Shown one piece after another: positions 14,077 through 17,822 of a stretch of 42,262 bases of DNA. The first letter of the stretch is position 1. Every line of letters starts with the position of its first letter. Location: NCBI GenBank assembly GCA_016873475.1, contig VGXI01000007.1, forward strand, positions 1-42,262, read 5' to 3'. The position numbers and the translations under genes are program-made. The notes beneath the pieces were generated by a model. The model was not told where the DNA came from. It searched no databases and worked only from the letters and a program-made list of their open reading frames with translations. Origin of the DNA: a bacterium (GTDB taxonomy: Bacteria > Krumholzibacteriota > Krumholzibacteriia > JACNKJ01).

Positions 14077-15537
14077 GTGAGACCCGGACTGCGACTGCTC
14101 GACGACAGCCTGATCGGCCGCATCCTCGACGAGGCGAGGGAGATCCTCGCCAAGCTCGGCATGGAGATCCACAACGAGGGCCTGCTCGACCGCCTGGCCG
14201 CGCACGGGGCTGCGGTCGATCGCGCCACGCGGCGCGTCCGCTTCCCCGCCAGCGTGATCGATCGCGGTCTCCAGACGGCGGCTCCGGCCTTCAAGCTCTA
14301 CGATGTGCTGGGGGAAGAGGCCTGCGATTTCGCGGGTGACAAGGTCCACTTCACACCGGGCTCGGCCGCCATCAACGTCCTGGACGCGCACAGCGGCGAG
14401 ATGCGGCCGCCGACGACGGTCGACTACGTCGACTTCGTGAAGCTCGTCTCCCGCCTGCCGCATCTGGCCTCCCAGGCCACGGCCTTCATCCCCGCCGACG
14501 TACCCGAAGGCGTGTCCGATTCCTACCGACTCTTCCTCAGTCTGCTTTACGGCGAGAAGCCGGTCGTCACCGGCGCCTTCACGATCGCGTCCTTCGCCCT
14601 CATGCGCGACCTCCAGCTCGCCGTGCGCGGCTCCGCGGCGGCGCTCGCCGCGAAGCCGCTGACCGTGTTCAGCGTCTGCCCAACCGCCCCCCTCAAGTGG
14701 AGCGACGTCACCAGCCAGAACCTCGTCGACTGCGCCGAGCTGGGCGTCCCCGTCGAGTACATCTCGATGCCGCTCACCGGCTTCATGTCCCCGGTCACGC
14801 TGGTGGGCGCGCTGGTCCAGCACACCGCCGAAACGCTCAGCGGCGTCGTGATGACGCAACTGGTCCGCCCCGGCGCCCCCGCGCTCTACGGCGGCTCGCC
14901 CGCGGCCTTCGACCTCCGCTACGAAACCACGCCGATGGGAGCGGTCGAGACCCAGATGATCGACTGCGCCTACTGCGAGATCGGGAAGTACCTCGGTCTG
15001 CCCACCCAGGCCTACATCGGTCTCAGCGACGCCAAGCGCCTCGACGCCCAGGCGGGCGCGGAGACGGCGATGGGCGCCACCCTCGCCGCGCTCGCCGGCA
15101 TCAACAACGTCAGCGGGCCGGGCATGCTGGACTTCGAGAGCTGCCAGAGCCTGGAGAAGCTGGTCCTGGACAACGAGCTCTGCGGTCTGGCGCTGCGCCT
15201 CACGCGCGGCATCGAGCCCAGGGAGGACTTCCCGGCGCTGCCCCGCTTCGAGGAGCTGCTCGCCGAGGGCCACCTGCTCATCTCCACGCACACCCGGCGC
15301 CACCTGCGCGCGGAGCACTACTTCCCGGGCCCCGTCATCGACCGCGCCAATCGCTCCCGCTGGCGGGAGGAGGGCGGCCTCTCGCTGGACGCGCGCGCCC
15401 GCCGCGAGGTCGCAGCCCACCTGGCCGCCTACGCGCCCTCGCGCCTGCCGCAGGAGACGAAGGCCGAGTTGATCCGCCTGATGACGGCCGAGGCCGCCCG
15501 CTTCGGCCTCGCCAGGCTGCCGGAGCGCCCGGCATGA
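14077..15537 (+). CDS. MttB-family corrinoid-dependent methyltransferase without pyrrolysine
   Basis: The 486-residue TIM-barrel enzyme belongs to the trimethylamine/quaternary-amine methyltransferase family (PF06253). Members move a methyl group from a methylated amine to the cobalt of a partner corrinoid protein. Family features are the N-terminal LGMEIHNEGLLDRLAAHGA, the central FTIASFALMRDLQLAVRG, and the C-terminal block with GGSPAAFDLRYETTPMGAVE and INNVSGPGMLDFESC. The frame is open throughout, so there is no in-frame TAG for pyrrolysine. This places it with the MtgB/MtpB-like enzymes known to use glycine betaine, proline betaine, carnitine or similar, rather than trimethylamine. The actual substrate is unknown. 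The GTG start is preceded by AAGGGGGG. The stop overlaps the next gene (ATGA), and the corrinoid protein it needs lies two genes on. Confidence 0.85.
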   Translation: MRPGLRLLDDSLIGRILDEAREILAKLGMEIHNEGLLDRLAAHGAAVDRATRRVRFPASVIDRGLQTAAPAFKLYDVLGEEACDFAGDKVHFTPGSAAINVLDAHSGEMRPPTTVDYVDFVKLVSRLPHLASQATAFIPADVPEGVSDSYRLFLSLLYGEKPVVTGAFTIASFALMRDLQLAVRGSAAALAAKPLTVFSVCPTAPLKWSDVTSQNLVDCAELGVPVEYISMPLTGFMSPVTLVGALVQHTAETLSGVVMTQLVRPGAPALYGGSPAAFDLRYETTPMGAVETQMIDCAYCEIGKYLGLPTQAYIGLSDAKRLDAQAGAETAMGATLAALAGINNVSGPGMLDFESCQSLEKLVLDNELCGLALRLTRGIEPREDFPALPRFEELLAEGHLLISTHTRRHLRAEHYFPGPVIDRANRSRWREEGGLSLDARARREVAAHLAAYAPSRLPQETKAELIRLMTAEAARFGLARLPERPA

Positions 15538-16247
15538 GAAAGGTCTTCGGGTTCACCGCCGCCGAGTTCGTGCCGGCGCCGGAGGCGGTGCTGCGCGCCC
15601 AGGGCGTGAAGCGCGATCGGGCGGCGGACCCGCGCACGGCCGGGCTCTGCACCGAGGCCCTCGGACTCCTGGAGGGACTCGCGCGGCCGACCGGTCTCCT
15701 CCAGGAGCTCTCCCGCGCGGACTTCGCCGCGGTCTACTGCGGCGAGGGTCGCAATGCCGAGCGCTCGCCGCTGGCCGAGATCGCTCCCCGCGCGGAGCGC
15801 CTGGCGCTCTTCGCCCTGACGCTGGGCGCCCCGGTCACCGAGCGCATCGCATCGCTCTTCGCCGCCGGCGACTTCGCCCTGGCCGCCATGCTCGACGCCG
15901 CGGCCTCGGAGAGCGCCGAGCTGATCGCCGATTCGCTGCAGCGGAACTACGCCCGCGCCCTTGGCGAGACAGGCGGCCTCAACGGCCAGACGCGGCTTCT
16001 GCGCTACAGCCCTGGCTACTGCGGCTGGCACCTCAGCGGCCAAGGCGCGCTCTTCGCCGCACTGCGGCCGGCGGCGATCGGCATCACCCTGCGCGAGAGC
16101 TACCTCATGGAGCCGCTGAAGTCGATCTCGGGGGTGATCGTGGCGGGGCCGGGGGCCATCCACAGCTTCGCGGACGACTATCCCTTCTGTGCCGACTGCG
16201 ACACGCGGGGATGCCGCCAGCGGATTCGAACCATCCTGCAATCCTAG
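15534..16247 (+). CDS. Stand-alone MetH-type cobalamin reactivation domain protein
   Basis: This 237-residue protein matches the short, separate form of the B12-dependent methionine synthase activation domain. It has RYSPGYCGWHLSGQGALF, where MetH-like proteins bind the corrinoid partner, followed by IGITLRESYLMEPLKSISGVI, the usual MxPxKSxSG element. In MetH this domain positions the B12 domain for reductive methylation of inactive Co(II). The last 25 residues hold a CxxCxxxxC motif (FCADCDTRGCRQR) that could bind a metal or Fe-S cluster; this is an inference. The ATG overlaps the stop of the MttB-like gene by four bases. It probably reactivates the corrinoid protein encoded next, 19 bases downstream. 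Its presence separates this operon from classic MttB clusters, which use RamA-type Fe-S ATPases for reactivation. Confidence 0.75.
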   Translation: MRKVFGFTAAEFVPAPEAVLRAQGVKRDRAADPRTAGLCTEALGLLEGLARPTGLLQELSRADFAAVYCGEGRNAERSPLAEIAPRAERLALFALTLGAPVTERIASLFAAGDFALAAMLDAAASESAELIADSLQRNYARALGETGGLNGQTRLLRYSPGYCGWHLSGQGALFAALRPAAIGITLRESYLMEPLKSISGVIVAGPGAIHSFADDYPFCADCDTRGCRQRIRTILQS

Positions 16248-16266
16248 ACATCCAGGGAGGGCGAGC

Positions 16267-16920
16267 ATGGAGATCCTGGAACGCGTCGCGGCCGAGTTGA
16301 TGGCGGGCGAGGACGAGCGGACGGCGACGGCGGTCGCCGCGGCGATCGCGGCCGGGACGCCACCCGGGCGGATTCTCGACGAGGGCCTCATCGCCGGGAT
16401 GAACGCGATCGGCCAGCGCTTCCGCGCGCACGAGATCTTCCTGCCCGACGTGCTGCTCGCGGCCAGGGCGATGTACGCCGGGCTGGGGCTCCTCAAGCCC
16501 CTGCTCGAGCAGGCCGGCGTGCCCGGGCGCGGCAAGGTGGTCATCGGCACGGTGCAGGGCGACCTGCACGACATCGGCAAGAACCTCGTGGGCATCATGC
16601 TGCGCGGCGCCGGCTACGAGGTGATCGACCTCGGCAGCGACGTCGCCCCCGAGCGCTTCGTCGCCACGGCGAAGGCCGAGGGGGCGGGCTTGATCGGCAT
16701 GTCCGCGCTGCTCACGACGACGATGCCCGTGATGGGCAGGGTCGTCGAGCTGCTGCGGGCGGAAGGCCTGAGCGGCAAGATCAAGGTGGTCGTGGGCGGT
16801 GCGCCGCTGTCGGCGGCCTTCGCCGCGGAGATCGGGGCGGATGCCTACGCCTTCGACGGCGCCAACGCGGTGCAGACGGTGGAGGCCCTGCTCCGCGGCG
16901 CCGGTGCGGGGCAGCGCTGA
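16267..16920 (+). CDS. Corrinoid (methylcobalamin) carrier protein, MttC/MtbC type
   Basis: The 217-residue carrier has the two-part layout of B12-binding methyl carriers. An N-terminal four-helix cap (residues ~1-85, with ILDEGLIAGMNAIGQRF and FLPDVLLAARAM) is followed by a Rossmann-like domain. Here GDLHDIGKNL contains the lower-axial ligand His101 (DxHxxG), and the later GMSALLTTTMP and VGGAPLS lie over the cofactor. It should shuttle between the MttB-like enzyme, the homocysteine methyltransferase and the reactivation protein, all in the same operon. GGAGGG precedes the ATG. Length and motifs are normal for the family. The stop is followed after two bases by the next start. Confidence 0.9.
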   Translation: MEILERVAAELMAGEDERTATAVAAAIAAGTPPGRILDEGLIAGMNAIGQRFRAHEIFLPDVLLAARAMYAGLGLLKPLLEQAGVPGRGKVVIGTVQGDLHDIGKNLVGIMLRGAGYEVIDLGSDVAPERFVATAKAEGAGLIGMSALLTTTMPVMGRVVELLRAEGLSGKIKVVVGGAPLSAAFAAEIGADAYAFDGANAVQTVEALLRGAGAGQR

Positions 16921-16922
16921 GG

Positions 16923-17822
16923 ATGCGCGGCCTCGGCGAGCGCCTGGCGGCGGGCGAGGTCCTGATCGGCGATGGCGCCCTGGGCACGCAGCTCATCGAG
17001 CGGGGAATGGGACCCGGGTCCTGCCCCGAAGCCCTGAGCCTGTCCCACCCCGACTGGCTCGAGGCGATCGCCCGCGCCTACGCCGCGGCCGGGGCCGACC
17101 TCGTCGTCACCAACACCTTCGGCGCTTCGCCCCAGAAGCTGGCCGCCTACGGCCTCGCCGACCGGCTCGAGGAAATCGTGGCTGCTGCCGTGGCCGCCGC
17201 CCGGCGCGGCGCTGGCGCGCGCGCGGCCGTGTCCGGCAGCATCGGTCCCACGGGCAAGCTGCTGAAGCCCTACGGCGACACCGAGCCCGCGGCGCTGGCG
17301 GCGGGCTTCGCCCGGCAGGCCGCCGCCCTGGCCGCGGCGGGCGTCGACGCCTTCTCCATCGAAACGATGACGGACCTCGCCGAGGCTGTGCTCGCCGTCG
17401 CGGCCGCCAGAGAGGCCGCCCCGCAGCTGCCCATCCTTGCCACGATGACCTTCGACGAGACGCCGCGGGGCTTCTTCACGATCATGGGCGCGAGCGTGCC
17501 CGCCGCCGCCGCCGGCCTGGCCGCGGCGGGCGCGGCCGTCGTCGGCTCCAACTGCGGCAACGGCGCGGCGGCGATGGTGAAGGTGGCCCGCGAGTTCGTC
17601 GCCGCCACGCGGCTGCCCGTCATCATCCAGCCCAACGCCGGCCGGCCCGCGGTGGTGGGCGGGAAGACGATCTACGGCGAATCGCCCGCGTTCATGGCGG
17701 AGCGGGCGCGCGAGCTGCTGGACCTGGGCGTCCGGGTGGTCGGCGGTTGCTGCGGCACGACGCCCGAGCACATCCGGGCCCTCGCCGAGACCCGCGCGCG
17801 CTGGCTCAGCGCCCGCGCCTGA
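16923..17822 (+). CDS. Homocysteine S-methyltransferase, MetH N-domain/BHMT type
   Basis: The 299-residue zinc enzyme of the S-methyltrans family (PF02574) corresponds to the homocysteine module of MetH. The first conserved block is LIGDGALGTQLIERG, with VTNTFGASPQKL following. The three zinc-binding Cys are in VGSNCGNG (around residue 205) and GGCCGTTPEH (around residue 279). In this operon the obvious methyl source is the adjacent methyl-corrinoid protein, giving methionine. Direct use of betaine, as in BHMT, is less likely because a separate demethylase and carrier are present. The gene starts two bases after the corrinoid protein stop, so the two are probably coupled. A convergent hairpin follows at 17840. 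Confidence 0.85.
   Translation: MRGLGERLAAGEVLIGDGALGTQLIERGMGPGSCPEALSLSHPDWLEAIARAYAAAGADLVVTNTFGASPQKLAAYGLADRLEEIVAAAVAAARRGAGARAAVSGSIGPTGKLLKPYGDTEPAALAAGFARQAAALAAAGVDAFSIETMTDLAEAVLAVAAAREAAPQLPILATMTFDETPRGFFTIMGASVPAAAAGLAAAGAAVVGSNCGNGAAAMVKVAREFVAATRLPVIIQPNAGRPAVVGGKTIYGESPAFMAERARELLDLGVRVVGGCCGTTPEHIRALAETRARWLSARA

Follow-up and report, generated by a model that had tools for sequence, protein, structure and literature searches.

Can methionine be made by a corrinoid protein that takes its methyl group from a methylated metabolite and not from folate? The question is raised by four consecutive genes on contig VGXI01000007.1 of a bacterium of the phylum Krumholzibacteriota (lineage JACNKJ01, assembly GCA_016873475.1). 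We analysed the forward strand of this contig from position 1 to 42,262, a stretch of 42,262 nucleotides that we call the window. The genes encode an MttB-superfamily methyltransferase, a stand-alone MetH-type activation protein (the reactivator), a corrinoid protein and a homocysteine S-methyltransferase (HMT). We consider it likely that they form a complete corrinoid methyl-transfer chain onto homocysteine, serving as a second route to methionine in this organism and apparently as the sole route in some others.

We infer the reactions, their direction, the partner contacts and the reactivation chemistry to be as follows. MttB would move a methyl group from a methylated compound to the Co(I) of the corrinoid protein, and HMT would pass it from methyl-Co(III) to zinc-bound homocysteine, yielding methionine. 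Upon accidental oxidation to Co(II), the MetH-type protein would restore the cobalt using S-adenosylmethionine (SAM, AdoMet) and electrons supplied from outside the operon. The chain would run beside the ordinary methyl-folate-fed MetH of the window's organism as a folate-independent second route; in some other genomes the operon would apparently be the only methionine synthase.

The four-gene operon and its conservation

The four genes lie on one strand with spacings of −4, 19 and 2 bases, and their Pfam domains and coordinates bear out the types and spacings given in a preliminary description of this DNA. That description had also named homocysteine as the encoded acceptor, with a reactivator of the MetH kind and the methyl-folate domain replaced by a demethylase; we find homocysteine to be the only methyl acceptor encoded, the reactivator to be MetH-type and no subunit of the set to be folate-binding.

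Table 1. Coordinates of the operon genes and of two further features.
Feature	Location	Strand	Length (residues)	Domain match or motif
MttB-superfamily corrinoid methyltransferase, methyl-donor module (GTG start)	14077..15537	+	486	PF06253, E 1.7e-75
Stand-alone MetH-type activation (reactivation) protein	15534..16247	+	237	PF02965, 37.9 bits
C-terminal cysteine motif of the reactivator	about 16187-16215			CxxCx4C
Corrinoid protein, B12 cap and B12-binding domain	16267..16920	+	217	PF02607 and PF02310; GDLHDIG
Separate HMT, acceptor module	16923..17822	+	299	PF02574, E 4.1e-67
MetE C-terminal-like protein, TGA read through (L173)	genome G000, contig C25:483-1559		390	PF01717

The MetH-type motifs of HMT, corrinoid protein and reactivator are present in the set and kept in its relatives. 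The HMT zinc ligands C211, C276 and C277 are invariant in aligned relatives, as are D99, H101, D102 and G104 of the corrinoid DxHxxG motif (alignment A4), and the activation motif RxSPGY occurs in 57/57 reactivator homologues, with RYSPGY as the window's version of the AdoMet motif RxxxGY. By these motifs the set would qualify as a MetH by function, with methionine formation from homocysteine as the predicted activity. The closest solved structure to HMT is the N-terminal half of T. maritima MetH (1q7m, E 1.2e-50, 176 bits), with human BHMT matching more weakly (88 bits). Identity of HMT with BHMT was rejected by score comparison, the NCBIfam BHMT model giving 195 bits against a cut-off of 338, and a core methionine synthase of the MesA-D type was rejected on the acceptor protein, which is PF02574 and not PF01717. 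The corrinoid protein scores 209 bits with the MtgC model and 187 bits with pyl_corrinoid, both under the cut-off. None of the four proteins is shown by sequence to be the equivalog of a characterised protein, because all matches to the specific NCBIfam models (for pyrrolysine MttB, MtgC, BHMT and MetH) fall below their cut-offs.

The PF02965 match of the reactivator is partial, yet it exceeds the curated cut-off. Its AlphaFold model (pLDDT 96) has as best PDB match the stand-alone protein TM0269 (1j6r, E 1.4e-11, TM-score 0.81 on the target), followed by MetH activation domains, so that comparison of the predicted structure backs the weak sequence match; AlphaFold models of the operon proteins rest on alignments of the operon's relatives. 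The MttB- and corrinoid-dependent systems of the MtgB and E. limosum type use RamA-like reactivators. The operon itself carries the PF02965-type protein in place of a RamA-type (DUF4445) or DUF1638 protein. We also observed a C-terminal CxxCx4C motif in 55/57 stand-alone reactivator homologues that is not present at the C-terminus of MetH from the window's genome and is possibly a metal or Fe-S site.

MttB belongs to the non-pyrrolysine branch of its superfamily (PF06253/COG5598) by domain, fold and the lack of a pyrrolysine codon. Its AlphaFold model (pLDDT 92) best matches MtgB 9yce (E 1.5e-39, TM 0.91) and also 2qne and MttB 7xcl (TM about 0.91). Leu316 occupies the position of pyrrolysine 334 in M. 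barkeri MttB, in agreement with the preliminary description; of 53 aligned MttBs, 46 have Leu at this site and the rest have Met, Phe or Asn. Pyrrolysine insertion was rejected: the window has no match to Rfam PYLIS_3, and matches in relatives are read as coding similarity.

The preliminary description proposed a search for the same gene order in other genomes. Scanning GTDB genomes with a reactivator alignment gave 425 relatives, and the locus figures that follow are for the best 80 of these. All four genes occur in the identical order on one strand in 55/80 loci (median spacings −4, 17 and 1), and these complete operons span about 11 named phyla. Since it is conserved to this extent, we confirm that the arrangement is not due to chance. 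Many of the remaining loci are cut by contig ends, masked, or hold a subset or a different combination of the genes. Across the 55 operons the median identity to the window is 67% for MttB (range 58-75%), 47% for the reactivator, 61% for the corrinoid protein and 57% for HMT, and protein distances among the four correlate (r 0.72-0.78), as expected of co-inherited genes. In a tree of the four proteins the operons cluster by phylum only in part, and the nearest relatives of the window operon are two Planctomycetota operons; some transfer between phyla is likely, though the tree pattern is no proof of it. Within the window's own phylum (a sample of 78-80 genomes), PF06253 occurs in 31 genomes, and in 31/31 it lies at a locus with the reactivator, with one MttB each; two PF06253 matches in G027 and in G031 are probably fragments of a single gene. 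The window's genome likewise has a single PF06253 protein. Other families of the phylum have the set rearranged as corrinoid protein-HMT-reactivator-MttB.

Methionine synthases of operon-bearing genomes

A MetH split by a contig gap is also encoded in the window's genome, an assembly of 3.64 Mb in 425 contigs with 95.6% completeness and 5% contamination. Contig C48 holds an HMT/methylenetetrahydrofolate reductase (MTHFR) fusion of 627 residues and then the start of metH, which runs to the contig end, and contig C137, which begins within the pterin domain, supplies the B12 and activation domains. The two pieces, which we infer to be one gene, leave a gap of about 95 residues between them. Contamination is an unlikely source of this MetH, as the tetranucleotide composition of C48 and C137 correlates with that of the window at r 0.97 and 0.94. 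The preliminary description had read the set as MetH taken apart, a reading against which it held that an intact metH in the same genome would speak; a metH is here, broken by the contig end beside the HMT/MTHFR fusion, and the set coexists with it. Replacement of MetH by the operon is thus rejected for this organism, in which the operon would be an additional, second route to methionine.

To place this organism among others, we tallied MetH and MetE in the 50 genomes reached via the loci. Of these, 49 have the operon, whole or in large part, and one, G127, has only the reactivator. Classes were assigned by PF02965, PF00809 and PF01717 searches, and the tally is a manual reading of the three tables. 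We observe MetH with an activation domain in 19 of the 49, only a MetE-type protein in 3, and a MetH-like protein without an activation domain in 13 (G109 being uncertain), with frames mostly of about 780-800 residues. The other 14 have no MetH and no PF01717 (MetE) protein (G083, G087, G088, G092, G094, G095, G099, G101, G106, G107, G111, G112, G113 and G118). This set includes several drafts; G083, G106 and G113 are single chromosomes. The question put in the preliminary description, whether operon genomes lack MetH and MetE, is answered yes for these 14 and no for the window's organism and the others with MetH or MetE. In 13 of the MetH-less genomes we found no stand-alone PF00809 protein other than a folP-like one, and in the 14th, G113, where the MttB region is masked, the second PF00809 match is a fragment of a folP-like gene.

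The genomes with short MetH suggest a different role for the operon, in which its reactivator would mainly serve a MetH that has no activation domain, leaving MttB, corrinoid protein and HMT as a minor salvage path. In 12-13 of the 49 genomes the short MetH (about 780-800 residues) is accompanied by a reactivator only in the operon, and two-gene splits of this kind exist in Bacteroides (PMC7311316). However, in nearly all loci the reactivator goes with MttB-corrinoid protein-HMT rather than with metH, and it is kept both where MetH has its own activation domain, as in the window's genome, and where MetH is absent. We regard this role as very improbable.

Loss of MetH can be followed in WOR-3 bacteria. 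In G093 and G105 a short metH is directly followed by metF, between mnmG and the DUF62, cvpA and M16 peptidase genes; in G129 the metH-metF pair is bordered on one side by DUF62, cvpA and M16. The complete chromosome of G106, also a WOR-3 bacterium, has the mnmG...DUF62-cvpA locus at about 1.616-1.626 Mb, where the flanking genes show 54-84% identity but both metF and metH are gone, mnmG standing 75 bases from the next gene, while the four-gene set is kept. Sampling 1.16 of the 2.37 Mb of G106 (49%), which was the extent of the metF search, turned up neither metF nor a second metH; PF00809, PF01717 and PF02965 were searched for across the entire chromosome. Joint loss of metF and metH with retention of the four genes is what folate-independent methionine synthesis predicts. 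The WOR-3 loci L182, L183 and L185 have an HMT-pterin-B12 MetH (777 residues in L183) with metF directly after it, the sole activation protein found in these genomes being the one in the MttB operon, and G106 encodes a second corrinoid protein (L199) that has as neighbours UroD-like genes and a possible BadF/RamA-like ATPase, all named by eye.

Folate partners and the methyl donor

Several points weigh against a folate-independent chain. In the window's phylum, families f4 and f5 have the rearranged set and no full-length MetH, and most of their genomes encode a separate PF00809 protein of 270-300 residues of the methyl-folate:corrinoid kind; folate may therefore act on the corrinoid protein there, feeding or draining it, and a folate branch as in the Ruegeria pomeroyi MtgBCDE system is likely in these families. 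A folate partner outside PF00809 could be missed, because D. hafniense MtgA has no sequence identity to known structures (PMC7154762). The presence of MetH leaves the window's organism with no genetic need for the operon. No SAM, S-adenosylhomocysteine (SAH) or cobalamin riboswitch was found in the window or in the 46 loci scanned. The genomes sampled are mostly incomplete metagenome-assembled genomes. Finally, methionine auxotrophy could also account for the loss of MetH, but less easily for the retained HMT.

The published Ruegeria model (PMC12478193), built on the Phaeobacter split MetH (PMC5764234), offers an alternative in which the corrinoid protein is common to MttB, HMT and a folate methyltransferase encoded elsewhere (or MetH), MttB mainly feeding folate in catabolism and methyl-folate feeding methionine. 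The separate PF00809 protein of f4 and f5 argues for it, as does Chloroflexota locus L160, in which a reactivator-MttB pair (MttB 33% identical) lies beside PF00809 with no HMT. In the window's genome, however, MetH and one folP-like protein are the only carriers of PF00809, with no separate PF00809 methyl-folate:corrinoid methyltransferase, and the 13 MetH-less genomes described above have no candidate either. G106 lacks metF and metH together. Among 93 loci, we found no dedicated PF00809 protein in the operon or its conserved neighbours (non-PF00809 types were outside this search), and no further gene family common around the set, including dimethylglycine and sarcosine demethylation genes. 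Taken together, we consider this alternative unlikely, and the direct transfer from MttB through the corrinoid protein to homocysteine remains our preferred reading.

The order of genes in other loci bears on how a folate acceptor would appear. L160 has its PF00809 methyl-folate-type methyltransferase after the reactivator and MttB, a folate acceptor with the same modules, and spirochaete locus L120 has the order reactivator-corrinoid protein-UroD-PF00809. These loci show that a folate acceptor is detectable by our searches when present; the acceptor of the window's set is HMT. A second Chloroflexota locus, L163, also has a reactivator followed by a distant MttB (33% identical). In L165-L169 of families f4 and f5, the PF00809 protein has 265-269 residues and is encoded next to a conserved GlmU-like protein, at a distance from the four genes.

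The methyl donor is probably a quaternary or tertiary amine, by analogy with the rest of the family. The preliminary description gave a betaine as an example, for which we find no support. Five glycine-betaine contacts predicted by docking in D. hafniense MtgB (Y94, N199, R309, H345 and F353; PMC6855144) are kept in 0/5 positions in the window's MttB, which has S96, C201, Q311, a gap and E354 instead; glycine betaine as substrate, and identity with MtgB, were rejected on these docking-predicted residues. The strong conservation of the MttB clade and its single copy suggest that its members share a substrate. The same observations, 58-75% identity across phyla in single copy, could point to a universal substrate and not a nutrient, and hence to a clade that has switched to methyl-tetrahydrofolate or another one-carbon pterin, which would make the operon a four-piece MetH, still folate-dependent. 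The loss of the predicted betaine contacts fits such a switch, and both kinds of enzyme are TIM barrels. We nevertheless find it quite improbable: the protein is an ordinary MttB/MtgB in fold and sequence and does not match a pterin-binding domain, metF, which supplies methyl-folate, is gone with metH at the syntenic site of G106 and from the sampled 49%, and the window's genome already has a methyl-folate MetH.

Neighbouring genes were rejected as a general clue to the substrate, since the one recurring neighbour is an amino acid permease gene, present near five loci (L045, L046, L132, L137 and L152). In L045 it lies directly 3′ of HMT. The permease is possibly a transporter of the substrate or of methionine.

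We also observed a candidate selenoprotein, the MetE C-terminal-like protein of L173 (Table 1). It has an in-frame TGA at match residue 214, at the same position as in two other genomes (L175 and L176), and a similar GC hairpin lies 3′ of the TGA in all three. Five more were flagged with one TGA, and the relative in L177 has Cys at the TGA site.

Comparison with known systems

To our knowledge, the majority of MttB-superfamily proteins lack an assigned function, and folate or coenzyme M is the methyl acceptor of those that have been characterised. Six physiological substrates had been assigned to characterised members by 2025 (PMC12155760). If our reading is true, it gives a function to a large MttB clade in about 11 phyla, explains the missing methionine synthases of uncultured bacteria (WOR-3, Zixibacteria, Eisenbacteria and others), and uncouples methionine synthesis from folate one-carbon metabolism. 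A broader proposal can be made only tentatively, and we hold it to be somewhat less than an even chance: that MttB, corrinoid protein, HMT of MetH and not MetE type, and reactivator constitute a widespread class of folate-independent synthase, and that in lineages without metH and metF all new methyl groups of methionine and SAM come from a methylated metabolite. As for the preliminary interpretation as a whole, a self-contained set that is the sole candidate synthase in several MetH/MetE-less genomes stands, while MetH replacement in this organism and betaine do not.

We did not find the four-gene set described in the open-access literature, most subscription papers and bioRxiv preprints lying outside the search. 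The sharing of one corrinoid protein between an MttB-family protein and modules of methionine synthase is already known from Ruegeria pomeroyi MtgBCDE (2025), a glycine-betaine demethylase and methionine synthase working via one corrinoid protein (PMC12478193). Of the earlier idea of MttB-to-homocysteine transfer, the encoded acceptor is upheld, but the sharing is not new. MtgBCDE resembles the window's set in having an MttB-family donor and a separate PF02574 HMT joined through one separate corrinoid protein. However, neither of its functions can do without the pterin methyltransferase MtgD, the methyl group passing via folate, and the window's set has no MtgD. Reactivation in MtgBCDE is by RamA and DUF1638, whereas that of the window's set would be MetH-type, and mtgE usually lies elsewhere in MtgBCDE genomes, whereas the window's four genes form one operon.

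Other systems share single features with the operon. The three-part split MetH of Phaeobacter inhibens (PMC5764234) also divides its modules among several proteins, PF02574 and PF02607/PF02310 proteins among them, but it keeps PF00809 and has no PF02965, where the window's set has MttB instead of PF00809 and adds PF02965. MesA, MesB and MesC (PMC7857596) and core-MetE (PMC7005905) are likewise folate-independent, with a corrinoid protein as the presumed source of the methyl group; they are MetE-related PF01717 proteins whose presumed methyl supplier is MtrA or CoFeSP, unlike the PF02574 protein, dedicated corrinoid protein and MttB of the window. MtgB-MtgC-MtgA and the E. limosum MtpB, MtcB, MtyB and MthB systems (PMC6855144, PMC7154762, PMC12155760) pair a non-pyrrolysine MttB with a cognate corrinoid protein, but they are catabolic with tetrahydrofolate or coenzyme M as acceptor, whereas the acceptor encoded in the window is homocysteine. 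TM0269 (1j6r) and Bacteroides BT0249 (PMC7311316) are, like the window's reactivator, activation proteins separate from MetH, the fold having been compared for TM0269. These proteins complete a folate-dependent MetH, whereas the window's reactivator is encoded together with MttB, corrinoid protein and HMT.

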